A stretch of DNA of 22,560 bases from a virus. Positions 6,038-22,560 of the stretch are shown in pieces. Location: IMG/VR virus record IMGVR_UViG_3300050821_007054, positions 1 to 22,560 of that record, one strand, 5' to 3'. The position numbers were made by a program, and so were the translations under genes. Under the pieces are notes generated by a model. That model saw only the letters and a list, made by a program, of their open reading frames with translations, did not search any database and was not told the DNA's origin. Position 1 is the first letter of the stretch. Each line of letters starts with the position of its first letter.

Positions 6038-6277
6038 TCAATTTAAAATATCTTTAATAGTATTGCTTCGTAAATATGGTGTAAATTTAATTAATAAAAG
6101 TGTATCCAAAGTTGGTTTTAAATGTGCAGGAAATTGGTCATATAGCTCAACAAAAGTTCCTTTTAGCGTTTTATTATCACCCCCAGTCATAAACATTTTA
6201 ACCTTCCAGTTTTCATCAATGACCTCCTGTAAAGCTTTACCAAACTGCTCAGCGGTTACTAAATTTTTTATGTCCAT
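6038..6277 (-). CDS. small protein of unknown function (79 aa)
   Basis: A 79-residue soluble protein beginning MDIKNLVTAEQFGKALQEVI. It is mixed helix and strand by inspection, with no Cys motif and no membrane segment. The ATG has the TTTTAA leader typical of this block. It lies 11 nt downstream of the preceding stop and 4 nt upstream of the next ATG, so it is part of the same operon. A + strand ORF of similar length covers the same bases and is its mirror image. Confidence 0.62.
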   Translation of the reverse strand: MDIKNLVTAEQFGKALQEVIDENWKVKMFMTGGDNKTLKGTFVELYDQFPAHLKPTLDTLLLIKFTPYLRSNTIKDILN

Positions 6278-9611: not shown

Positions 9612-9779
9612 TACATTATATAGAAAGTTATTAACAATATGTAACTGCCTGATAGTCAAAATGTTACAATATTGCTTTTTCAAACAATTTAATTCTGCCT
9701 CCCAATATATTCCACAGTTCTCCCTAGGCATATTAGAATTAAATTGTTTTTCTATATTGCAAGTTTTACAAATTTTCAT
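9603..9779 (-). CDS. tiny CxxC-containing ORF, possible endonuclease N-terminal remnant
   Basis: A 58-codon ORF from ATG 9779 to TAG 9603, beginning MKICKTCNIEKQFN. The C-(x2)-C-N-(x)-EK pattern is typical of the N-terminal zinc knuckle that precedes HNH-type phage endonucleases, including the HNH protein at 2504. The remaining residues contain two more cysteines but no nuclease core. The ATG overlaps the end of the endonuclease gene at 9766 by 14 nt in another frame. It is either a translated small gene or the leftover 5' end of a lost HNH gene. Confidence 0.4.
   Translation of the reverse strand: MKICKTCNIEKQFNSNMPRENCGIYWEAELNCLKKQYCNILTIRQLHIVNNFLYNVFV
9682..9749. repeat. 15-bp perfect inverted repeat with 38-nt loop
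   Basis: The arm AAACAATTTAATTCT (9682-9696) has an exact reverse complement at 9735-9749. It would make a 15-bp hairpin between the endonuclease gene at 9766 and the promoter at 9580. Beyond the arms, the loop begins GCC and ends near GGC, allowing a few more pairs with a bulge. There is no T-run on the minus strand after it, so it is not a standard terminator for the minus genes. Confidence 0.6.
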
Positions 9780-10677
9780 TGATTATTATTTTATTCATTT
9801 CAGTTTCTATATCGTCTTTATAGGAAATTCGATAAAGTTTTATATCATTATTATTACAGTAACTATCTTTAATGAAATCATTTACTTTTGTTTTCTCGAA
9901 ACCGTCCATACCGCCAAAACATGTTTTCGCTTTAAAATGCTGTTCACCATCGAATTCTAAGCATATATTTAAATCTGGTAAATAGAAATCAAATGGTAAT
10001 TGATATATGTTTTTACAATCATTGAATTTGTGCTGCTCAAAATATTTTATGTTTAATGATTTTAATATTATTGAAATAAGTAATTCTCCTTTAGATTGAT
10101 TGCACTTAGGACATCCGTGTCCACGTAAATGATTATTTATTTCTTGTGTGAAATTTCCATGGTCAATGCAAATAATTGAAATTAAATCGTGTATATTTAT
10201 AAATTGAGTAACGTTAGAATAATCATAACGCGATTCATGTACTATATTTGCTCGTTTTTTAAATACATCGACAGATAATTTTTTATTCTTTGCACAATCA
10301 GCACAACCACAGCCGCCATTCATATGTGAAGAAGCACTTTGTTTAAAAATCCCGTGATCTGGACAAATAATATTAACTTTATTGTGTATACCATTTATTT
10401 CTGTGATGAGAGAATAATCGTAAAAATAATTATGTATAATATTTGAAGCCGTTATAAATTTTTTTAAAGATATAGGTTTGTTACCAGCACAATCAGGACA
10501 GCCTTGTTCTTTTCTGATATGATTATCTGGCGATTGCCAAAAATATCCATGCTCAGAGCATTCTATTTTCATTTTTTTACTAGAAGAAACAAAACTATCT
10601 GGATAATATGCAAATTTATTTCCATGTACAATTTTAGCTTGTTGTAATGTTAATTCAAATGTTTTTAGACTTATCAT
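9766..10677 (-). CDS. DUF723 zinc-repeat, Vsr/EDxHD-like homing endonuclease
   Basis: Probable homing endonuclease. Residues 1-195 hold three copies of a 55-65-residue unit with the pattern hydrophobic-(x)-A-(x)-H-(x)-Y-(x)-YS, then I-(x)-C-(x2)-HG-(x)-F, H-(x)-GCP-(x)-C, each probably binding one zinc. This is the DUF723-type repeat. Residues about 200-300 form a restriction-endonuclease-like catalytic domain: SKGELLISIIL, then FDFYLPD, then CLEFDGEQHF, then YRISYKDD, supplying E, D and E-(x)-D-(x)-QH residues as in Vsr-like or I-Bth0305I-type enzymes. Its ATG overlaps the previous stop (ATGA), so it is translationally coupled to the larger relative at 10674-11801. Family assignment is good; target unknown. 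Confidence 0.8.
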   Translation of the reverse strand: MISLKTFELTLQQAKIVHGNKFAYYPDSFVSSSKKMKIECSEHGYFWQSPDNHIRKEQGCPDCAGNKPISLKKFITASNIIHNYFYDYSLITEINGIHNKVNIICPDHGIFKQSASSHMNGGCGCADCAKNKKLSVDVFKKRANIVHESRYDYSNVTQFINIHDLISIICIDHGNFTQEINNHLRGHGCPKCNQSKGELLISIILKSLNIKYFEQHKFNDCKNIYQLPFDFYLPDLNICLEFDGEQHFKAKTCFGGMDGFEKTKVNDFIKDSYCNNNDIKLYRISYKDDIETEMNKIIINENL

Positions 10678-11801
10678 TTTATTAAATTATGTGTTGTTAA
10701 TATTTTTAGCATTTCGATATTAATATCATCTTTATAAGATATTCTATATAAAATAATATTATTCTTTATGCAATATTCTGTTTTAATATTGTCTCGAATT
10801 TTCCTGATTTTAAAATCTTCTTCTCCACCAAATCTTTTTACTGGTGTGAAATGTTGTACACCATCGTATTCTATGCATATATTTTTTCCGATTATTTTAA
10901 AATCAAAAGATAATACTTTTTTATACTTACAATCTGGAAAAGTATGTTGTGCTTTAAATAGTATATTATGTGTTGTTAAGATATTAATGATAGCATTTTC
11001 TCCAATCGAATTACAACAATTAGGACACCCTTGTCCCTGCATATGATTATCTGGTGTTTGTTCAAACTTTCCGTGTTTTAAACATATTATAGGAATACTA
11101 ATTTTAGAACCTAATATTTTATGAATTAAACTATAATCATATTTTGAATTATGTTTTTCGTTAGAAACTTGAATAAATCTTTCAATAGTGAGGGGTAAAT
11201 TTCCGCCACAATGTGGGCAACCACTTTTTCCTGTTATATGATGTGATGGTGTTTGACTAAAAAATCCATGTACACGACAATATATATTTAATGGTATTTC
11301 ATAATTAATATAATCAGCAAATGCGTACAAATATCTAGATCCATGTACATTATGTGCACGTTTTAAAAATTGTATTTTAGTCAACCCTGAAAGATATACA
11401 CCTTTTTCGTTTAAACATTTTTCACATGCACATTTTTTAATCAAATGTTGTGTAGGAGTTTGTTTTACTATCGTGCTATGTTTTTTGCACAAGAATAATA
11501 TCGGAGTCTTTGCGTCTATATAATCGATATTGTTGTAATTGAATTTATCTTCGCCCCAAACTTTTATAGCTTTTTTGATAAATATTTCTTTTAGTGTGTC
11601 AATTTGACATTTTTTACACGCACAACGTTTCTTTAAATGGTGCTTAGGTGATTGCCGCACCTCAATATTATGTTTTAAACAAATAAAAATTACAGGCTTG
11701 TGGTTGTTTATATAATCGACACTACTATAATCGAAACGATTATCACCCCATACTTTTGTTGCTCTTTTTATAAACTTTTCTTTCGATGATCTACTTGTCA
11801 T
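10674..11801 (-). CDS. DUF723 zinc-repeat, Vsr/EDxHD-like homing endonuclease, four repeats
   Basis: A 375-residue relative of the downstream gene with one more zinc repeat. The four units end CACKKC, CACEKC, GCPHC and GCPNC. The first two are more like each other (VWG-(x2)-(K/R)F-(x)-Y, then H-(x2)-KKCAC-(x)-KC) than like the last two, which suggests internal duplication. The C-terminal catalytic domain shows GENAIINIL, LSFDFKI, CIEYDGVQHF and YRISYKDD. The ATG at 11801 has a long A/T leader. The end overlaps the next start as ATGA. It is the first gene after the strand of small genes changes to endonucleases. Confidence 0.8.
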   Translation of the reverse strand: MTSRSSKEKFIKRATKVWGDNRFDYSSVDYINNHKPVIFICLKHNIEVRQSPKHHLKKRCACKKCQIDTLKEIFIKKAIKVWGEDKFNYNNIDYIDAKTPILFLCKKHSTIVKQTPTQHLIKKCACEKCLNEKGVYLSGLTKIQFLKRAHNVHGSRYLYAFADYINYEIPLNIYCRVHGFFSQTPSHHITGKSGCPHCGGNLPLTIERFIQVSNEKHNSKYDYSLIHKILGSKISIPIICLKHGKFEQTPDNHMQGQGCPNCCNSIGENAIINILTTHNILFKAQHTFPDCKYKKVLSFDFKIIGKNICIEYDGVQHFTPVKRFGGEEDFKIRKIRDNIKTEYCIKNNIILYRISYKDDINIEMLKILTTHNLIK

Positions 11802-11832: not shown

Positions 11833-12270
11833 TTATTCCTCAACATCTTTCCCTTTAACTTCGATAGGCACAAAGAACTCATCCTGAATAGTTAATGTGT
11901 ATTCGCCATTGTTATACACAAGCCCATAAAAATAATTATCTTTTAAAATATGCGGAACACCATTTATAGTTAAAGTATCACCTTCGATATTTGTTATATA
12001 ACCATCAGCATCTTTAAATTCTGCTTTCACTTTCTTATCGCGACTCAGTAAGTCAGAAAGTTTTATCTTAACATCATTGAAATCTAAATGAGAAAATGAT
12101 TGCAAATCTGTATCTTTTACCATATCCATATTTTTAAGAAAATCTTTCTCATAATCGGTTAGTTTGTTGATACCCAATTTATTGACCTTATCTAAAATTT
12201 TATTTAGCTCATCATCCTTACGAGTTTCAACGATCGTCTGTTGAAATTGTTTGAAACGTTTGATATACAT
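11833..12270 (-). CDS. acidic protein with a Bacteroidota-type helical motif, unknown function
   Basis: A 145-residue protein from ATG 12270 (MYIKRFKQFQQTIVETRKDD). A GTG at 12279 would add three residues but is less likely. Residues about 22-50 (LNKILDKVNKLGINKLTDYE, then KDFLKN) resemble the short helical motif ILDKI-(x)-G-(x)-SL-(x)-EK-(x)-FL that ends many Bacteroidota proteins (the DUF6576 type). Residues 75-145 look like a small beta-barrel or SH3-like unit (ADGYITNIEGDTLTINGVPH). It is transcribed away from the protease-scaffold gene, with which it shares a divergent intergenic region of 110 bp. The motif match is by memory; its function is unknown. Confidence 0.7.
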   Translation of the reverse strand: MYIKRFKQFQQTIVETRKDDELNKILDKVNKLGINKLTDYEKDFLKNMDMVKDTDLQSFSHLDFNDVKIKLSDLLSRDKKVKAEFKDADGYITNIEGDTLTINGVPHILKDNYFYGLVYNNGEYTLTIQDEFFVPIEVKGKDVEE

Positions 12271-12338
12271 GGTTTCCACAATTTGTTTTTAATATATATT
12301 TTTTGAAGAAAGTAGTTATTTGAAAGTAGCAGAAAATG

Positions 12339-12360
12339 ACTTTTGATCAATAATATATAA
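12339..12360 (+). promoter_or_regulatory. putative phage late promoter upstream of the protease-scaffold gene
   Basis: ACTTTT, 6 nt, TAATATATAA, with the last base exactly 20 nt before the ATG at 12381. The arrangement before the capsid gene is identical (14638-14659). A short purine-rich GGAG lies between promoter and ATG and may act as a ribosome site, which is unusual for this genome. The divergent minus-strand gene starts at 12270; its own promoter is not obvious. Confidence 0.62.
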
Positions 12361-12380: not shown

Positions 12381-14609
12381 ATGAGCATGAAACCCGTGTT
12401 AATTATTGAAAACAGTACAAATTCGTTAAGTCTTAACGAAAGTGCTGATAGTTCAGGAAAACGCAAATATGAGATGTCTGGTATTTTTACAGAATTTGAT
12501 GTAAAAAATCGGAACGAAAGAATCTACACTGCCGAAAAATTTATACCCTGCTTAAATGAGCTTAATGAGCGTATTAAAACATTTGGTATGGTATTCGGTG
12601 AATATGATCATCCAGATGTTTTTGATACATCACTTAAATGTACATCCCACATTGTAACAACAGCTTCTTTCAATGAATCTAAAAATTTAGTTGAAGGAAG
12701 TATTAGATTACTTTCGACCAAGTGGGGAAAAGAAGCCAGAAGTCTGGTAGAAGACCATTGCCCAATTTTCGTATCATCCCGTGCCGCAGGTATCACTGAG
12801 GCAGATGGGATGGTTAGTTTGAAAAAATTGTTTACATATGATATAGTAGCTGACCCGGGCTTCTCTTCCGCAAAAATGAATTTATCCAATATTAACGAAT
12901 CGTTAGGTTTCAAAAATCCTAAAGCAAATTTTAGAATTTATGAAATGAGCGATGCGTCAAAAATCAATGATGTTTTTAACATGAATAATGATGAATTAGT
13001 AACAAGAACCCAAATGACTGAATACTCTAAACACCTTATCAATGAGATTCAATCTACAAAAGCTATCGTAGAAAATGCCGTTAAAACTGGCACTATGGAC
13101 CCTTCTAAACTCAATGAATACATCGGATACTATGATGAACTTCGCGCTACTAACGAGAAGATTGTTAAATATCTTGATTATATCGCTGATAAACTTCTTG
13201 TGGCAGTTTCTGAGAATGATTCTCTAAAAGAAACTACTAACAAATTGATCGCTCACAATGATTACATTGTTGAGAATATGATAAAAGGTATTAGTTATAC
13301 TAAATATGTAGCTGAACAACTTGATAATACAATCCGATATAATGAATACATCGGAGAGAATTTAGAAAAGACTGTAAAATTCGGAGATTATCTTGCAGAA
13401 AATCTTGACAAGACAATCGAATACACAGATCATCTTTGTGAGAATTTAAATAGCTCTATTCGTTACAGTCAATATATTACTGAAAAACTTGGTAATACTA
13501 TTGAACATTCTAATGCTATATCAGAAAAAGTTGAAGATACTATCGAATATGTAGAACATGTTCGTGAGCATGTTGAAGGTGGTATTAGATACGTACAATA
13601 TGTAGCTGAACAAGTTGATGATACTATTAAGTATAGCGATTATATCGCTGAAAAACTTGATAACACACTTTCTTATTCTAAAAAAATTGTGGAAACACTT
13701 AACAATACCAAATTAATTACAGAAAGCATGGCTGATAAACTTCCTATGCCAGAAGAAGAAGGTATCTATATTATAGACGCAGAGAAAGAAAATGAAGAAG
13801 ATAAAAAGGAACCAGTTATGGGTGATGAGAATGATCACACAGCAGCAGATAATGAAACACCGAATGTGGTAGAATCTACAACTGAAACAACAGTTGTTGA
13901 AACTCCTGTGGTTGCTACCACTGAAACCATAGTGGAACAGCCAGTTATCGAAACTGCTACTGAAATCACCACAGAAGCTACTGCTGAAACAACACCTGTT
14001 GTTGCTGACCCAGTAGTTGAAAGTACACCCGCTGTGACTGAACCAGTTTCTACTGTCGTTACAGAAGTTGAAAACAAAACAAATGAATCAATTACATTAT
14101 CACAAAAAATAGATCAACTGATTACTGAGGCTAAAAAACGGAAAGCTGCAGAGACAGAGGATATACACTTCTTGAAATTCTTAAATAAGTCACAAGTAGA
14201 TAATTTCTACGCTATGACTCAGGATGATCGTGAGAAAATCGTTGCTTACATAAACGAAAAAAGCAATTACTACACAGGTACTGATGTTCTACGCTTAATG
14301 AATGAATCTCTTGCTCTTAAAGAAGAAGGTCTTGAGGAAAAGTTAGTTCGTTTAATTCCAGAAAGTATTAAACCTATCTGGGAATCAATGAACGAGTCTG
14401 CTAAGAAAGGTATTTTTTCGCAAGCTAAATTGTTCCCAACATTGAACAATGATCAAGCGATTGAACATTTTTGGTTGACTAGATCTTTAAAGAAAAATGA
14501 TACTTCAACAAAACAGATCGTTAATGAGTCTACTAAGATTTTAAATGATGATAAACTTAGTGATTCTGAGATGAATTCTATTCTTGCAAGGTTCAATTCT
14601 TTAAAATAA
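12381..14609 (+). CDS. prohead protease (gp21-like) fused to a coiled-coil scaffold region
   Basis: The N-terminal ~175 residues are a T4 gp21-type prohead protease: the early NRNERIYTAEKF segment, the catalytic His in GEYDHP (H77), Ser in VSSRAAG (S132 or S133) and Asp in YDIVADPG (D158 likely). In T4 the protease is about 212 residues. Here the chain runs to 742. Residues 264-445 are thirteen in-phase 14-residue repeats of the type Y-(x2)-YIAE-(x)-LD-(x)-TI-(x), a two-heptad coiled-coil period. Residues 470-565 are acidic and then Thr/Val/Pro-rich and disordered. Residues 566-742 are helical. I infer that the extension is the internal scaffold (gp22 role) fused to the protease. NES occurs seven times and may mark cleavage sites. 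It sits directly before the capsid gene, where T4 keeps genes 21 and 22. Confidence 0.85.
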   Translation: MSMKPVLIIENSTNSLSLNESADSSGKRKYEMSGIFTEFDVKNRNERIYTAEKFIPCLNELNERIKTFGMVFGEYDHPDVFDTSLKCTSHIVTTASFNESKNLVEGSIRLLSTKWGKEARSLVEDHCPIFVSSRAAGITEADGMVSLKKLFTYDIVADPGFSSAKMNLSNINESLGFKNPKANFRIYEMSDASKINDVFNMNNDELVTRTQMTEYSKHLINEIQSTKAIVENAVKTGTMDPSKLNEYIGYYDELRATNEKIVKYLDYIADKLLVAVSENDSLKETTNKLIAHNDYIVENMIKGISYTKYVAEQLDNTIRYNEYIGENLEKTVKFGDYLAENLDKTIEYTDHLCENLNSSIRYSQYITEKLGNTIEHSNAISEKVEDTIEYVEHVREHVEGGIRYVQYVAEQVDDTIKYSDYIAEKLDNTLSYSKKIVETLNNTKLITESMADKLPMPEEEGIYIIDAEKENEEDKKEPVMGDENDHTAADNETPNVVESTTETTVVETPVVATTETIVEQPVIETATEITTEATAETTPVVADPVVESTPAVTEPVSTVVTEVENKTNESITLSQKIDQLITEAKKRKAAETEDIHFLKFLNKSQVDNFYAMTQDDREKIVAYINEKSNYYTGTDVLRLMNESLALKEEGLEEKLVRLIPESIKPIWESMNESAKKGIFSQAKLFPTLNNDQAIEHFWLTRSLKKNDTSTKQIVNESTKILNDDKLSDSEMNSILARFNSLK
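13170..13715 (+). repeat. 42-nt coding repeat (thirteen 14-residue units) in the scaffold region
   Basis: In-frame units of exactly 14 codons follow one another without gaps, e.g. YTKYVAEQLDNTIR, YNEYIGENLEKTVK, FGDYLAENLDKTIE, YSQYITEKLGNTIE and YSDYIAEKLDNTLS. DNA identity between units is modest while the protein pattern is kept, so the repeat is old and selected at protein level. A weaker fourteenth unit may precede it from 13128. Confidence 0.85.
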
Positions 14610-14637: not shown

Positions 14638-14659
14638 ACTTTTAGACGTTAATATATAA
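14638..14659 (+). promoter_or_regulatory. putative phage late promoter upstream of the major capsid gene
   Basis: ACTTTT, 6 nt, TAATATATAA, with the last base exactly 20 nt before the ATG at 14680. The leader between them consists almost only of A and C (AAAACAAAAAAC type), typical of highly translated Bacteroidota genes without a Shine-Dalgarno sequence. Same layout as at 12339-12360. Confidence 0.65.
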
Positions 14660-16625: not shown

Positions 16626-17984
16626 ATGTCAAATAAAGAATTAATATTAAATTTGGTAGGGAAAAATTCTAATAGAAGAAAAGAATCATATATAAAAAAA
16701 CATTATAACAATCTACATATTCAAATTTTAGAATACACAAAAAATATATCCGATTTACCTTTTAAACAATTATTATGGCATTTTGAAAATGAAAAATTAA
16801 ATTATATTTTTTGTGCATGCCCTAATTGTAATAATAGAGTAAATTTTTCAGAACCAAATTCGCATTATTACAAACATTGTTCACCAGCATGCTCAGGTAA
16901 TAATCCAGATACTACCGAAGCTAAATTATTTTCCACCGATCGTGATAAAAATACAGAATTAACTAAGCAAAATTTTATAAAAAAACACAAACAATATTTT
17001 ACAGAAAATAATTTAAGATTTATATCTATAAATAATACAAGTAACAAATATACATTTGAAGATCTATCGTGTAATCATGTTGTGTATGATATGCTACAAG
17101 AAACTATAAAACGTAGAATAGATAATAATTTACACGTTTGTAATATATGTAATCCATATTTTTTATTAAATCCTTCAACATCAAGTAAAAAATCAAAACC
17201 AGAACAAGAAATTTTTGATTACATAAATAGTGATTTAAAATATATAGGTGTTGATAGTGATCATTCCGTTTTGGATCGTAAGGAAATTGATATTTATCTT
17301 CCAATCCAAAAGTTTGCTATTGAGCATAATGGTGTATATTGGCACTCCGATATACATGTTAAATTTGATGAACATCAACACAAAACCATAGAATCTAACA
17401 ACAAAGGAATATCTTTATTACATATATGGGGTGATGAGTGGCTGTATAAACAAGAAATTGTTAAATCGAATATTCTATCATATTTAAACAATCAACCATA
17501 TCATAAATTCGCACAATCTTGTTTAATATATGAAGTTTCAGAGACTGAAAAATCATTCTTTTTATATAATAATCATATCGATGGTACTTGTGGTGAATCT
17601 TTAAATTTAGGGCTTTACTATCAAGGAGAATTAGTATCAATATTATGTTTGTATACTAAAAACGTCAATAATAATAAAATCGTGCGATTCGCTAACAAAT
17701 TAAATACACAAGTAACTGATTCTTTCACTAAACTATTCAAATATTTTATAGAAAATTATACATATAATAAAATAACAATTTATCATGATTTATCTAAGCC
17801 TAATATTTTACCATTAATAGAATTAAGGTTTATATATACAAATAGAATAGAACCACAACATAAATATGTAGTTAATAGTAAACGGCTTTCGTATAAAGAA
17901 TTGTCAATATCTTATATATCATATAATAAAATCTACGATTGTGGTTATGATAAATATGTTTTCACTAAACAAAACCTTCTCTAA
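16626..17984 (+). CDS. Hef-like homing endonuclease
   Basis: A 452-residue free-standing endonuclease of the Hef-like phage type. The N-terminal part has two Cys clusters: CACPNC with CSPAC (about 63-90), then CNICNP (about 171-176), probably zinc fingers for DNA binding. A PD-(D/E)XK or EDxHD-type catalytic core follows: SKPEQEIFDYI (Glu), DRKEIDIYLP (Asp) and AIEHNGVYWHSD (Glu, Asn), then a GISLLHIWGDEW segment typical of this family. The last 170 residues contain the accessory domain seen in its relatives (IVRFANKLN, SFTKLFKYFIENY). It follows the capsid gene and terminator, suggesting insertion next to a conserved target. Its stop is followed within 20 nt by a DUF723-type endonuclease. 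Confidence 0.8.
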   Translation: MSNKELILNLVGKNSNRRKESYIKKHYNNLHIQILEYTKNISDLPFKQLLWHFENEKLNYIFCACPNCNNRVNFSEPNSHYYKHCSPACSGNNPDTTEAKLFSTDRDKNTELTKQNFIKKHKQYFTENNLRFISINNTSNKYTFEDLSCNHVVYDMLQETIKRRIDNNLHVCNICNPYFLLNPSTSSKKSKPEQEIFDYINSDLKYIGVDSDHSVLDRKEIDIYLPIQKFAIEHNGVYWHSDIHVKFDEHQHKTIESNNKGISLLHIWGDEWLYKQEIVKSNILSYLNNQPYHKFAQSCLIYEVSETEKSFFLYNNHIDGTCGESLNLGLYYQGELVSILCLYTKNVNNNKIVRFANKLNTQVTDSFTKLFKYFIENYTYNKITIYHDLSKPNILPLIELRFIYTNRIEPQHKYVVNSKRLSYKELSISYISYNKIYDCGYDKYVFTKQNLL

Positions 17985-18000
17985 CCACTATAATCATTTA

Positions 18001-18930
18001 ATGCCTGTTAAACCTGTTTTGTACTCTCAATTTATAAAACATAAAAGATCTAATACTTTATACGATAAACAATCATATAAAAATATTCGAACTTCTATGG
18101 TTATGTTGTGTACGAAACATTTGCATACATATAGGCAAATTCCGCATGATCATATTAAAGGACACAATGGTTGTGAATTTTGTCAAACTGAATTTAAATA
18201 TAATAATAAAATAAAATCACACGAACAATTTATTAACGAAGCTATGATAATACATGGTGATAGATATAAATATCCTGAAAAATATAAAGGAGCAACGATA
18301 AAAATTAAGATAATATGCCCTAAGCATGGTAAATTTTATCAAAAACCATCTACCCATATCACACAAAAATCAGGTTGCCCGAATTGCTTTGGTAATATTA
18401 TAAAAACAAAAAATGAATTTATAAGAAAAGCAAACATTAAGCACAGCAATAAATATTGTTATGATGACACGAACATGGGAATTAATGGCAGAGTAAAAAT
18501 TAATATTATGTGTTTTGATCATGGAATATTTTATCAATCTCCTAAAGATCATTTGATAGGCAGAGGCTGTCCAAAATGTAAAACATCAAAAGGTGAGTTT
18601 GAAATTAGGAAAATATTAATAAAGTATTCCATAAAATTTGTAGAGCAATTTAAATTTACTGATTGTAAACATATTAATTTTTTATATTTTGATTTTAAAA
18701 TTAAAAATTTACCAATCTGTATAGAATTCGATGGCCGTCAACACACTGAACCTGTAAGTAAATTTGGAGGACTGATAGAATTTAAGAAAATAAAATTAAG
18801 AGATTCAATTAAAAACAATTATTGTCGTAGAAATAATATTAAACTATTTCGAATATCTTATAAGAATAACTTTTTAAAAACATTAAATAAAATAATTGAA
18901 TATATAAAAAATGAAAATATTAACAAATGA
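18001..18930 (+). CDS. DUF723 zinc-repeat, Vsr/EDxHD-like homing endonuclease
   Basis: A relative of the two minus-strand enzymes at 9766 and 10674. The frame is open from 17941 (GTG, then ATGs at 17947 and 17956), but these overlap the upstream gene. I prefer the ATG at 18001, 16 nt after its stop. From there (309 residues) there is one incomplete unit ending GCEFC and two full zinc repeats ending GCPNC and GCPKC. The catalytic domain follows: SKGEFEIRKIL, LYFDFKI, CIEFDGRQHT and FRISYKNN. The glutamine-histidine pair is kept, but the following residue differs from the usual F. It overlaps the next endonuclease by 20 nt and is probably a tandem duplicate of it. Confidence 0.78.
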   Translation: MPVKPVLYSQFIKHKRSNTLYDKQSYKNIRTSMVMLCTKHLHTYRQIPHDHIKGHNGCEFCQTEFKYNNKIKSHEQFINEAMIIHGDRYKYPEKYKGATIKIKIICPKHGKFYQKPSTHITQKSGCPNCFGNIIKTKNEFIRKANIKHSNKYCYDDTNMGINGRVKINIMCFDHGIFYQSPKDHLIGRGCPKCKTSKGEFEIRKILIKYSIKFVEQFKFTDCKHINFLYFDFKIKNLPICIEFDGRQHTEPVSKFGGLIEFKKIKLRDSIKNNYCRRNNIKLFRISYKNNFLKTLNKIIEYIKNENINK

Positions 18931-19849
18931 AGAATTCTTATCAAAAGCTTATAAAATAAGAAAAAATATTAAATATTTAGAGCCTTATGTTGATAATAAA
19001 ACGTTAATAAGAATGTGTTGTACTATTCATAATTATGAGTATGTGCAATCTCCTTATGGTCATCTAAGTAAAAGAAATTCATGTATTTATTGTCAGAAAG
19101 ATAGTAGAGGTTTTACAAATATCATAAAAACAACATCTGAATTTATCGAGCAATCTAAATTAAAGCACGGTGATAAATGTGATTATTCTCTTGTAAAATA
19201 TATTTCTAATATAAAGAAAGTGATATTCATATGTAATAATGGTCATCCTAATTTTAAGCAAACTCCTAAGCAGCATTTAAAAACTAAAAATCCTTGTCCA
19301 GTTTGTTCTAACAGAGAAAGAATTACAAAAACAAGATTCGTTGATGAATCTAATGACATACATGATTTTCTATACGACTACAGCAAAGTGTGTATAAATA
19401 AAAAATCTAATAATCGTTCTAAAGTTATTATAAAATGTTTTAAACACGGGTATTTTAATCAAATGATACATAAACATTTAGGTGGGCAAGGTTGTCCAGA
19501 CTGTAGGAAATCAAAAGGAGAGCTACACATAAAGAAAATATTAAAACGTTCTGATATAAAGTTCGTACAACAATTTAAATTTTTTGATTGTCGCTATATT
19601 AATCCATTATCTTTTGATTTTAAAATAGTAGACATGGATATATGTATAGAATTTGATGGTGAACAGCATTTTAATCCGATAAAAAGATGGGGCGGCTCTG
19701 ATAATTTAAATATAATTAGACTTCGTGATTCAATTAAAACCAAATATTGTCGTAAAAATGGCATAAAATTATATAGAATTTCATATAAGGATAATATTAT
19801 TTACAAAATGAAAAATATAATCAAACAAATTAAGTCAGAAATTATATAA
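18911..19849 (+). CDS. DUF723 zinc-repeat, Vsr/EDxHD-like homing endonuclease (second of tandem pair)
   Basis: A 312-residue protein with three zinc units. The first is degenerate (CCTIHNYEY, SCIYC) and the others end PCPVC and GCPDC. The catalytic domain shows SKGELHIKKIL, LSFDFKI, CIEFDGEQHF and YRISYKDN, all the expected acidic residues. It is closest to its upstream neighbour: both share KFVEQFKF or KFVQQFKF and RDSIK-(x2)-YCR. The gene starts 20 nt inside that neighbour in another frame. The second unit has NNGH in place of the usual H-G, the sort of drift expected in a homing gene. Target unknown. Confidence 0.8.
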   Translation: MKILTNEEFLSKAYKIRKNIKYLEPYVDNKTLIRMCCTIHNYEYVQSPYGHLSKRNSCIYCQKDSRGFTNIIKTTSEFIEQSKLKHGDKCDYSLVKYISNIKKVIFICNNGHPNFKQTPKQHLKTKNPCPVCSNRERITKTRFVDESNDIHDFLYDYSKVCINKKSNNRSKVIIKCFKHGYFNQMIHKHLGGQGCPDCRKSKGELHIKKILKRSDIKFVQQFKFFDCRYINPLSFDFKIVDMDICIEFDGEQHFNPIKRWGGSDNLNIIRLRDSIKTKYCRKNGIKLYRISYKDNIIYKMKNIIKQIKSEII

Positions 19850-20399: not shown

Positions 20400-20812
20400 G
20401 GGGATGGCAGAATTGACAGTTACTGATCATTCTATATTAGCAAGTAGTGGGTTGTCTAGTAAACCACTTTAAAACTCTAGGTAAATGTAAACGGCAACGT
20501 TACAAACGAAATCGGCACAAAAGCCGATGTTTTAGCAGTTATGAAAAATAACTTGTTAAAACCCGCAAAAAAGCAAGTCGCTGAACTTGCTCTTGCGTAA
20601 ACAGTGAAGCACAGTAACTGTTTTAAAGTTCACAGCAAAGCCAGCAACCAGTTTTGTATTAGTCTTTTTGCTCAAAATTAAAAAGATTATTTGGTAGTGT
20701 CGAAAGCACCATAATTTTCGAATATTTTGTCAGCGTTAGAAAATACTGAATAAACTTGTAGAAAATATAGATTGGCGTGATTTGGACTCGGGATCGACCC
20801 TCGACATCTCCA
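20400..20812 (+). ncRNA. ssrA: transfer-messenger RNA (tmRNA), phage-encoded
   Basis: tmRNA rescues stalled ribosomes: it enters as alanyl-tRNA, then supplies a short message for a degradation tag. The tRNA-like half is clear. GGGGATG (20400-20406) pairs with CATCTCC (20805-20811), with the G3-U pair that specifies alanine, and A20812 is the discriminator. The T-arm is TCGGG/CTCGA around ATCGACC. CCA is not encoded. Long helix P2 pairs TCTATATT (20431-20438) with AATATAGA (20764-20771). A pseudoknot PK1 is visible: AGTGG/CCACT, with loop CTAG pairing to CTAG near 20478. About 12 nt after it comes the tag frame. Total length is about 413 nt (E. coli 363), the excess lying in the tag region. 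A terminator follows directly. Confidence 0.9.
20493..20600 (+). other. predicted tmRNA tag reading frame (35 codons plus stop)
   Basis: The frame runs from GGC at 20493 (nt 94 of the RNA; the E. coli resume codon is at nt 90) to TAA at 20598-20600. The peptide begins GNVTNE and ends AELALA, contains a basic KPAKKQ stretch, and would carry one more untemplated alanine in front. The GUAAAC before GGC is like the sequence I recall before the resume codon in Bacteroidota tmRNAs, whose tags also start with G. Two hairpins (ATCGGC/GCCGAT at 20511-20528, and GTTTTA paired with TAAAAC across 20529-20562) lie inside the frame. A shorter reading starting at GCT 20580 (AELALA only) is possible. Confidence 0.6.
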
Positions 20813-20814
20813 CA

Positions 20815-20845
20815 AAAAAGACTCAGAAATTATCTGAGTCTTTTT
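20815..20845. terminator. bidirectional hairpin terminator between tmRNA and the minus-strand array
   Basis: AAAAAGACTCAG / CTGAGTCTTTTT: 12 paired bases around a 7-nt loop, with T5 on the + strand and, read from the other side, T5 on the minus strand as well. It starts 3 nt after the tmRNA 3' end and ends 3 nt before the stop of the last array gene, so it should end both converging transcripts. Confidence 0.9.
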
Positions 20846-20847
20846 AT

Positions 20848-21159
20848 TTATGCTAATAGTTCATTAATTATTTTATTGCGTTTCTCCCAGTATATATCAT
20901 TTATATTAAATACTTTAGTAGATGATACTTGATATTTGGCTGATGCGCCGTTGAAACAATAATAATCACCGTCAATTTTATATTCTTTTGTGAGAGTATA
21001 TCGTTTTAATGTTTTATTTTTTATCACTATCATAATATATTTATCGTCAGGCTCCAACCAAGTACGGAACTTTATTTTCGTATATCCATATATATTATTG
21101 GTAGAAAAATATTTTCTGATATGCGCTTTGATAAGAATATATTGTCCGTCTGTATTCAT
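20848..21159 (-). CDS. small array protein 1, unknown function (103 aa)
   Basis: The last gene of a minus-strand array of six related small genes. It has 103 residues, many Tyr, Lys and Ile, apparently mostly beta, with KEYKIDGDYYCFNG near position 60-73 and a C-terminal end NDIYWEKRNKIINELLA. That end aligns with the shared array signature (I-(x2)-I-(x)-R, then K-I-N-E-(h)-L). Its ATG overlaps the previous stop as ATGA. The stop lies against the shared terminator. No known family, Cys motif or membrane segment. Confidence 0.7.
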   Translation of the reverse strand: MNTDGQYILIKAHIRKYFSTNNIYGYTKIKFRTWLEPDDKYIMIVIKNKTLKRYTLTKEYKIDGDYYCFNGASAKYQVSSTKVFNINDIYWEKRNKIINELLA

Positions 21160-21527
21160 TTCAATACTTCATTAATTTTTTTACTTCTTATGATTTTACC
21201 TATCTGAAATATACGTGTGAGATTTTTGTCAAACTCAGAATGATATTTTAAATATCCAGTATTATTGAACTGTATTTTGAGATAGCCAGATATATAATTT
21301 GGATTTTCTATTATTTTATATGTCTTACCGCAATCAACATCTTTTATATTCTGTGATGTGTTATAACGAACAAAAAATACATAAGATAATTCATTAGAGT
21401 GTACAGCGGAATGTATTCTAGCTCTTAGTGTTTGGTATCTTTTTTTACACATCTGCAGCTTATGTTTCATGATATACTTGTCAACAATTCGCATAGCTAT
21501 TTTAAAATCTTTAGTTTCTTTAATCAT
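21156..21527 (-). CDS. small array protein 2, unknown function (123 aa)
   Basis: The ATG at 21527 (MIKETKDFKIAM) is chosen because it overlaps the upstream stop by 8 nt (AATGATTAA), as at two other array junctions. An ATG four codons earlier at 21539 is also open. The first half is basic and helical (YIMKHKLQMCKKRYQTLRAR), the second beta-like with KTYKIIENPNYISGYLKIQF. The end, FQIGKIIRSKKINEVLK, is the clearest form of the array signature. It shares KY-(x)-(H/N)-(x)-L, then KK/NRR-type spacing with array protein 5. No family recognised. Confidence 0.72.
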   Translation of the reverse strand: MIKETKDFKIAMRIVDKYIMKHKLQMCKKRYQTLRARIHSAVHSNELSYVFFVRYNTSQNIKDVDCGKTYKIIENPNYISGYLKIQFNNTGYLKYHSEFDKNLTRIFQIGKIIRSKKINEVLK

Positions 21528-21810
21528 TGTATAACACATTACATATTTTCACTTCTCTAATAGTTTTTGATATATTAATATACACGATGTTAGTTGACAC
21601 AGGATTATCGTCAGAAAAATATATTCCATCCACGCCGTAGCCCTTATCTGGTAGAAGCATACAGATATATTTTGATATAATTTCATTATCGTTATTTTCG
21701 TATAATTTTATTCTAAGTGCTATAATAGCACTGTCGTAGATATAATTACCTGTTTTTAATATAGCTAACGAACATGCGTTTACTAATATCTCAATATCAT
21801 CATTAGTCAT
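21520..21810 (-). CDS. small array protein 3, unknown function (96 aa)
   Basis: A 96-residue protein beginning MTNDDIEILVNACSLAILKT. It has a helical first half, then YGVDGIYFSDDNPVSTNIVY and the signature end INISKTIREVKICNVLYND. The DG-(x)-YF-(x)-D turn before the signature parallels DGDYYCFN of array protein 1. Its ATG overlaps the previous stop by 8 nt, and its own end overlaps the next gene the same way. No family recognised. Confidence 0.7.
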   Translation of the reverse strand: MTNDDIEILVNACSLAILKTGNYIYDSAIIALRIKLYENNDNEIISKYICMLLPDKGYGVDGIYFSDDNPVSTNIVYINISKTIREVKICNVLYND

Positions 21811-22102
21811 TTAATATATTATTTAAGTTATCTTGTCTGATAAATTTTGCAATATCTATTTTTATATTATATTTTTTGTAAGTATTTCCACCAATTTCTG
21901 TAAAAAATACATGAGTAATATTATTACTATTTGCATTTGAAAAACATATAACAGCATATCTATATTTATATGTAAATAATTGCCTAATTTCATATTTTGA
22001 TATATTGTCATGATGCCATATATAATTATTTGACATACAATAATTTTTAAATACACTTATGATAGCACCAATGTCTTTTTTGCAATATCCTGTATTACTC
22101 AT
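21803..22102 (-). CDS. small array protein 4, unknown function (99 aa)
   Basis: A 99-residue protein beginning MSNTGYCKKDIGAIISVFKN. It is rich in Asn, Tyr and Ile, with a strand-like middle (RYAVICFSNANSNNITHVFF) and the signature end IKIDIAKFIRQDNLNNILND. The ATG overlaps the preceding stop as ATGA. Array genes 3 and 4 share the last residues ND before the stop, which are also encoded by the overlap with the next start. No family recognised. Confidence 0.7.
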   Translation of the reverse strand: MSNTGYCKKDIGAIISVFKNYCMSNNYIWHHDNISKYEIRQLFTYKYRYAVICFSNANSNNITHVFFTEIGGNTYKKYNIKIDIAKFIRQDNLNNILND

Positions 22103-22479
22103 TGTAACAATTCTTTTATTAAATCATACCTCATTATTTTTTTAATTTCTAAATTATGTGTTCTGGATATTGGGCTTGTTTTACCACGATCATTATCATA
22201 AATATAATAATACTTACCAATCGTATACGATTTAGCTCGAAATATATTATTAACGTCTTGTGGCCGTTCTACAAAAGTTTGGATTATAATATAATCGAAG
22301 CTATTATAATCAATATATTTATTTTTATTATATCTAATTAATTTACCATTTACAAAAGTCATTTGTTGGTGAAAACTTTTAATAAAAGTTTCACGTCTAT
22401 TTTTTGATATATTTAAATTGTGATTAGTTATGTAACCATCAATATATTTTACTATTATATCAACCATTTCTTTAGTCAT
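22099..22479 (-). CDS. small array protein 5, unknown function (126 aa)
   Basis: A 126-residue protein beginning MTKEMVDIIVKYIDGYITNH. The N-terminal helix pair (VKYIDGYITNHNLNISKNRR) parallels array protein 2 (VDKYIMKHKLQMCKKRY). Then come AKSYTIGKYYYIYDNDRGK and the signature end LEIKKIMRYDLIKELLQ. The ATG overlaps the partial upstream gene by 8 nt (CATGACTAA). It is the longest complete member and the best one to search with. No family recognised. Confidence 0.72.
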   Translation of the reverse strand: MTKEMVDIIVKYIDGYITNHNLNISKNRRETFIKSFHQQMTFVNGKLIRYNKNKYIDYNSFDYIIIQTFVERPQDVNNIFRAKSYTIGKYYYIYDNDRGKTSPISRTHNLEIKKIMRYDLIKELLQ

Positions 22480-22560
22480 GTAGTATGCTATTTATTTTAT
22501 ATCTTCTTATAGTTGATCTTATGTGCAAAAATATGTAACGATCAGATAATATAGTAGAAA
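22472..22560 (-). CDS. small array protein 6, C-terminal end only (partial)
   Basis: The frame is open from the window edge to a TAA at 22472. Its last residues, YIFLHIRSTIRRYKINSILH plus D, carry the same signature as the five genes downstream (I-(x2)-TIRR-(x)-KIN-(x)-IL). The stop overlaps the next ATG by 8 nt. Only about 28 residues are visible, but the signature and the junction both make it a sixth member. Confidence 0.6.
   Translation of the reverse strand, partial: STILSDRYIFLHIRSTIRRYKINSILHD

Follow-up and report, generated by a model that had tools for sequence, protein, structure and literature searches.

A short C-terminal tag on mostly unrelated proteins encoded in a gene array of a huge-phage relative

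The DNA analysed here, referred to below as the window, is a virus record of 22,560 bases that stops at position 22560, right inside an array of six overlapping minus-strand genes; as a first-pass annotation had described, five ORFs are complete and the sixth runs off the end. The major capsid protein of the window is 57, 55.5, 50.6 and 47.3% identical to those of LR756502 (642 kb), LR745206 (634 kb), LR756504 (636 kb) and LR756501 (735 kb), hereafter W01, W02, W03 and W04, respectively. In the main text of PMC7162821 the four largest complete genomes measure 634, 636, 642 and 735 kb, their clade is called Mahaphage, and Bacteroidetes are the predicted hosts of genomes >634 kb; from these sizes we infer that W01-W04 are those Mahaphage genomes.

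All six genes of the array end in a tagged tail (C-tag). Gene 1, the last of the array (20848-21159, minus strand like all the others, 103 aa, C-tag score 18.5), carries IYWEKRNKIINELL (20854-20895); gene 2 (21156-21539, 127 aa, or 123 aa if it starts at 21527, as is likely) carries IGKIIRSKKINEVL (21162-21203), gene 3 (21520-21810, 96 aa) ISKTIREVKICNVL (21532-21573), gene 4 (21803-22102, 99 aa) IAKFIRQDNLNNIL (21812-21853), gene 5 (22099-22479, 126 aa) IKKIMRYDLIKELL (22105-22146), and gene 6, represented by its C-terminal 28 residues only (22472-22560, with coordinates taken from the overlap with gene 5), IRSTIRRYKINSIL (22481-22522). If gene 2 starts at the inner position 21527, the junctions of the array are ATGA or ATGANTAA overlaps of 4 or 8 bases each. 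In the window the C-tag is not limited to the array: a 79-aa ORF at 6038-6277 on the minus strand ends in FTPYLRSNTIKDIL followed by N and the stop (score 14.5). The tmRNA noticed beside the array in the first-pass annotation is there as well, at 20400-20815 on the plus strand (Rfam, 82.5 bits), and is missed by ARAGORN; its tag frame comprises ~35 residues up to the stop and ends in ELALA. Usual tmRNA tags are much shorter. Among the head genes, 12381-14609 encodes a 742-aa protein consisting of a prohead-protease-like part (by eye) and a long run of ~18-residue repeats of the YIAENLDKNIAYSE type, with similar counterparts in related phages. Four ORFs around the head genes (9766-11801 and 17941-19849) combine CxxHG..C..C repeats with a C-terminus that looks Vsr-like (by eye), and are probably homing-type endonucleases.

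The six genes had been interpreted as diverged paralogues, produced by tandem expansion, that share a C-terminal pattern. The pattern itself was upheld: I, R, [IL] and L occur at identical spacing in all six tails, and with a matrix built from the other tails the left-out tail of genes 2, 3, 4, 5 and 6 is equalled by only 0, 0, 1, 4 and 0 of 965 other ORF tails, respectively; gene 1 gives the weakest recovery, its tail being equalled by 15 of 965. Common descent, on the other hand, can be demonstrated only for the pair of genes 2 and 5. In full-length Smith-Waterman comparisons this pair scores 80 (z 7.0, 0 of 500 shuffles as good), while the remaining nine pairs of complete genes give z between -0.4 and 2.0. 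Leave-one-out full-length HMMs, searched against 4969 sequences, recover gene 5 at 1.6e-12 and gene 2 at 1.8e-7; gene 4 appears as the best non-member at a weak 0.012, and gene 1 (rank 9, E 0.16) and gene 3 (rank 31, E 1.2) are not recovered, even though recovery was favoured because the underlying alignment included all five complete members. The family claim thus fails for genes 1 and 3 by the annotation's own test, and the DGxY[YF] turn ascribed to several members is seen in two of five only (genes 1 and 3). Homologs of the bodies are scarce. We found no tblastn match for genes 1, 2, 4 and 5 in 50,697 phage records (E limit 10; 1 for gene 2) and only matches with E >= 1 for gene 3 (E limit 10), no homolog of genes 2, 4 and 5 in single-protein scans of IMG/VR, only weak matches in Pfam and PHROGs (best 0.0055), and no match below 0.05 for the array profiles A1 and A2 in nine related records. 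Against 4963 ORFs the bodies yield only two weak cross-matches, of gene 3 to a Lak ORF (0.0017) and of gene 4 to an ORF of LR756500 (0.011). The structure predicted for gene 5 together with gene 2 (pLDDT 41) is not usable. As far as sequence comparison can tell, what the array has in common is a short end-tag of the kind found on many unrelated proteins, and not a family.

The C-tag is a C-terminal pattern of ~14 residues, hxxxhR[DEN]x[KR][IL][ND]x[IL][LG], with a near-invariant Arg; in the iterated consensus of 200 tails R is present in 199, followed by D/E/N, any residue, K/R/I, I/L, N/K/D/E, any residue, I/L/V and L/G/I/F. Its distribution was analysed in ~492 kb sampled from each of W01-W04, i.e. 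part of each record, with ORFs of at least 40 aa (other limits in a few listings) called greedily, longest first and with no gene finder, open-ended ORFs being excluded and identical proteins counted once. With the matrix of the six array tails, 104 C-termini are tagged in the 2461 ORFs of W01-W03 (chosen by capsid similarity) and G006-G008 (chosen via the motif), where the internal density of matches predicts 3.4; for the 2183 control ORFs the figures are 5 tagged and 1.8 expected. In an earlier run of this matrix with the window left out, 71 of 118 matches were C-terminal, vs 4.2 expected. With the iterated matrix, 140 of 773 sampled ORFs are tagged in W01 (18.1%), 120 of 759 in W02 (15.8%) and 75 of 787 in W03 (9.5%), altogether 335 of 2319, and these rates are in-sample because the matrix was iterated on data rich in W01 and W02. 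The six-tail matrix and a plain regular expression are the less circular checks; the latter finds 135, 112 and 77 tagged ORFs in W01, W02 and W03, vs 4.2, 3.6 and 3.4 in random internal stretches. An unbiased search for patterns in the last 16 residues ranks R..[KR]...[ILVM] and R...[ILVM]..[ILVM] first in W01-W03, and patterns of the same kind still rank first after removal of paralogues. In three IMG/VR contigs reached via the motif, 10 of 45, 11 of 54 and 6 of 43 ORFs are tagged. The C-tag was found on 0 of 727 ORFs in W04, 0 of 84 in T4, 0 of 418 in LR756500, 0 of 612 in PTm1, phage G, Atu_ph07, phiKZ, RaK2 and P-SSM2, and 1 of 342 in Lak-A1 (table 15; with table 11, 0 of 79 in the first 50 kb). 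We found no description of such a tag in the literature covered, outside the scope of which lay preprints and most subscription journals, or in the main text of PMC7162821, where "c-terminal" occurs 0 times.

Comparison of W01 with W02 indicates that the tag is conserved at the protein level. Among their reciprocal best hits the motif is present on both partners in 42 pairs, on one in 4 and on neither in 208; in 33 of the 42 motif-bearing pairs it is C-terminal in both partners. The bodies of these 42 pairs are 41% identical, and all 42 retain the Arg, a figure that is partly circular because the matrix weights Arg. Codon choice at most positions of the motif is close to that of the genome, with A-ending codons mildly preferred at some, which suggests selection on the protein and not on a DNA element. 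The opposite possibility is that the DNA itself carries the signal, for instance where translation of the following, overlapping gene is initiated. It finds some agreement in the overlap of 106 of 179 tagged genes with the next gene, likewise seen in the window, but we regard it as scarcely tenable: in addition to the codon usage, the next gene is on the opposite strand in 45 of the 179 cases, no gene lies close behind gene 1, and the Arg stays constant across AGA, AGG, CGT and CGA codons, synonymous change being largely free.

Tagged proteins have mostly unrelated bodies. After removal of the tails, 198 of them fall into 167 blastp clusters, and 142 are singletons. A Pfam and PHROGs scan of 106 sequences (the 100 longest tagged proteins with a score of at least 13, and six with internal copies of the motif) reveals few known domains, riboflavin kinase, BtpA and DUF6011 being found once each; zinc-ribbon-like, membrane-like, BtpA-like and polymerase-fragment-like sequences are among the tagged proteins, partly as judged by eye. 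One of them, a C-tagged protein of 210 aa (L058:38946-39578), looks by eye like part of a family-B DNA polymerase (YIDTDS) and has no Pfam match. A C-tagged fragment resembling the major capsid protein (by eye) occurs in L007:26966-27751, L008:26425-27156 and L209:1773-2513, and in W01 and W02 it sits a few kb behind the capsid gene. The motif is also found away from the C-terminus: 277 ORFs are tagged within 8 residues of the end, vs ~60 internal or N-terminal matches, so a free C-terminus is not essential. In W02 a UvsW-like helicase (L039:830-2440) contains the motif as an insertion, at the place of which its orthologs from W03 and W04 (L094:3459-5033 and L071:12420-13982) show a 14-residue gap, and the W01 helicase (L018:9523-11283) has a degraded copy; helicase matches in the domain scan come from two of the six internal-copy sequences. 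One may suppose that all tagged proteins belong to a single huge, fast-diverging paralogue family, of which the tail is the last conserved piece, and the homology of genes 2 and 5 and the clustering of part of the bodies agree with this. The 142 singletons among 198 bodies, the different kinds of protein that bear the tag, and the internal copies, including the helicase insertion, make it highly improbable.

A search of the same kind on N-termini reveals a second pattern, the N-tag MK[HY][LI]Kx[FY]xxF[E/N], present on 115 of 773 ORFs in W01, 91 of 759 in W02, 55 of 787 in W03 and 27 of 727 in W04, i.e. on 288 N-termini vs 6.3 expected (matrix threshold 8), with the diversity of the bodies judged without clustering. 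The data for W01-W03 come from L007-L009, L013-L052, L057, L058 and L079-L099, where 7-15% of ORFs are N-tagged. In the window a 148-aa ORF (11833-12279, minus strand) starts in an N-tag-like manner with METMYIKRFKQFQQ, at a score of 6.0, under the threshold. The two tags nearly exclude each other: both occur on the same ORF in 2, 0 and 0 cases vs 20.8, 14.4 and 5.2 expected in W01, W02 and W03 (P 6e-9, 5e-8 and 0.003, respectively). Neither of the two double-tagged ORFs of W01, one of which is the capsid-like fragment, has a typical N-tag start.

The two sets of genes also differ in the sequences preceding them. Upstream of N-tag genes the heptamers AATATAT/ATATATA are enriched in W01-W03, and TAATATATA, at a median distance of 14 nt from the gene start, occurs within 100 nt of 50 of 113, 35 of 91 and 21 of 55 N-tag genes in W01, W02 and W03, but of none of the C-tag-only genes (0 of 138, 0 of 120 and 0 of 75; 0 of 333 in total). 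Among operon leaders it lies within 120 nt of 75 of 119 N-tag genes vs 0 of 92 C-tag genes, and of 81 of 712 other small ORFs; the looser AATATAT precedes 8 of 138, 12 of 120 and 6 of 75 C-tag genes. In the window the element is found on the plus strand before the portal gene (TTAATATATA, 787-796), the protease/scaffold gene (TAATATATA, 12351-12359) and the major capsid gene (TTAATATATA, 14649-14658). In W01 it precedes the portal gene, and the protease/scaffold and capsid genes are preceded by near forms of it (AATATATA); W03 has it before the portal gene and only a weak form at the protease/scaffold gene. Because of the genes it precedes (portal, protease/scaffold, capsid), we interpret TAATATATA as a putative late promoter, and the label "late" used below refers to this element and these genes. 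A copy of TTAATATAT inside gene 3 of the window, ~45 nt before gene 2, is taken as chance. The T4 sequence TATAAATA, considered as a candidate late promoter, is not clearly enriched before N-tag genes, and a Bacteroides-type early promoter shows no clear enrichment in C-tag vs N-tag leaders (20 of 92 vs 13 of 119; 13 and 14 in the reversed control). The C-tag is thus apparently carried by non-late proteins and is near-exclusive with the N-tag of late-type genes. This distribution bears on the idea that the C-tag is another capsid-targeting sequence, whose bearers are injected cargo. Many proteins are packaged by huge phages, and the capsid-protein-like fragment encoded near the capsid gene is tagged; given the near-exclusion with the N-tag and the absence of the late element of portal and capsid genes before all 333 C-tag-only genes, we consider this quite unlikely.

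Other repeated peptides were observed in phages without the C-tag. In W04 (LR756501; L056, L010, L059-L078) DPYGEExW occurs in 58 of 727 sampled ORFs, with 32 C-terminal, 12 N-terminal and 22 internal copies, and a scan of IMG/VR with its coding pattern retrieved 71 stretches (L104-L174) with up to 11 copies in one. Its codons are biased to CCT/TAC, so part of its spread may be due to recent copying. We kept this peptide apart from the C-tag, since its positions and promoter use differ; in W04 it coincides with the N-tag on 2 ORFs vs 2.2 expected, i.e. with no exclusion. In LR756500, NADDFGFFDN-like tails are found on about eight ORFs (L055:11601-17016, L101:25662-26507), with a weak signal once paralogues are removed, and these ORFs may constitute a paralogue family.

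The main rival of an addressing function is timed clearance: the C-tag would be a degradation signal, and a Clp machine of the phage would clear non-late proteins at a later stage of infection and spare the capsid set, which bears the other tag. Two full-length ClpP-like proteins and a ClpA/C- or ClpX-like AAA+ protein are encoded by each of W01, W02 and W03, with an additional, shorter ClpP match in W01 and W03, while the untagged W04 has no ClpP and Lak-A1, phage G and Atu_ph07 have a single full-length copy each; both the exclusion of the N-tag and the absence of the late element from C-tagged genes would fit. Yet untagged phages encode ClpP too, and internal copies of the tag, one of them in a helicase loop, are ill-suited to a C-terminal degron. 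Lon was not matched in any of 11 records, and the late element precedes 0 of 10 phage Clp genes inspected, i.e. no late-timed protease was seen. No ClpP was found in the motif-derived G006-G008, all three of which are incomplete fragments. We rate clearance as unlikely, though less so than the alternatives discussed above.

The two tags look like an undescribed protein-addressing code. The explanation we lean towards is that the C-tag docks non-late accessory proteins and that the N-tag marks a late set, probably capsid cargo; with the same modest preference, and as part of this explanation, the array of the window would be a cluster of tag-bearing accessory genes in a Mahaphage relative. Each array protein would consist of a mostly unrelated body and one short C-terminal tag, probably an amphipathic helix with a fixed Arg, which may dock on one common putative receptor, either phage-made or of the host, so that small non-late proteins, in changing sets, would gather at a single place or complex. 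C-tagged genes would be early or middle in timing, and the N-tag set with its late-promoter-like element would probably be packaged, by analogy with the capsid targeting sequence (CTS) of T4. Against this explanation speak the C-tagged capsid-protein-like fragment, a single one, the ~60 motif copies away from the C-terminus and the early-promoter counts, which show no clear enrichment before C-tag leaders. The repeats of the protease/scaffold protein were considered as the receptor by charge complementarity and rejected, as among the repeats listed they look alike, by eye, in tagged phages and in the untagged W04 (L010). More tentatively, in a joint proposal that could well prove wrong, roughly a quarter to a third of the gene products of Mahaphages may be sorted by two mutually exclusive terminal addresses. 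Late capsid cargo would bear its address at the N-terminus and non-late accessories theirs as a C-terminal helix, and a dedicated receptor would collect the accessories in an assembly organised by the phage; new functions would then be recruited by adding a tag, and other huge phages would use other peptides, such as DPYGEExW in the 735-kb phage. An anti-defence use of the putative accessory genes, as suggested in the first-pass annotation, is plausible, since the C-tag marks small, lineage-specific, non-late accessory genes, with which an arms-race role is compatible; the adjoining tmRNA adds no further support.

Small genes of huge phages are mostly orphans, and a tag readable in the sequence allows hundreds of them to be assigned to two classes, which makes it testable where a phage sends its accessory proteins. 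If the putative receptor is real, it would offer a way into the machinery with which the largest known phages take over the cell, and the C-tag could then carry chosen proteins to that site.

Several known systems resemble the tags in part. Rickettsia palindromic elements sit in frame within unrelated genes and code for short peptides; the C-tag differs from them by its codon use near background. Clp protease C-terminal degrons are likewise C-terminal peptides on many proteins, and the phages encode Clp proteins, but the C-tag has a helix-like pattern with a near-invariant Arg and occurs in internal copies. Cargo peptides of encapsulins and bacterial microcompartments and the Rubisco-binding motif of the pyrenoid are short, often terminal, and send unrelated proteins to a common assembly; unlike these systems, which have a shell or hub protein, the C-tag has only a putative receptor. 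The internal proteins of T4 are, in the passages of PMC3012670 that deal with them, diverse defence proteins with the CTS as their only common part, ten residues of which are enough for capsid targeting according to a passage of PMC9026906. The C-tag and the CTS (IPI-IPIII) are alike in being a short terminal peptide on otherwise diverse accessory proteins; the C-tag differs in its C-terminal position, its sequence, its presence on 10-18% of sampled ORFs and its lack of the late element, and so, to judge by the genes and their upstream regions, fails the defining features of a T4-type CTS, namely N-terminal position and late expression. The N-termini of T4 ipII and ipIII (MKTYQEFIAE) score negatively with the N-tag matrix, so that a sequence kinship of N-tag and CTS is not supported and spacing alone is similar. 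In place, spacing and the diversity of the proteins that bear it, the N-tag of the huge phages is nevertheless like the CTS of T4.
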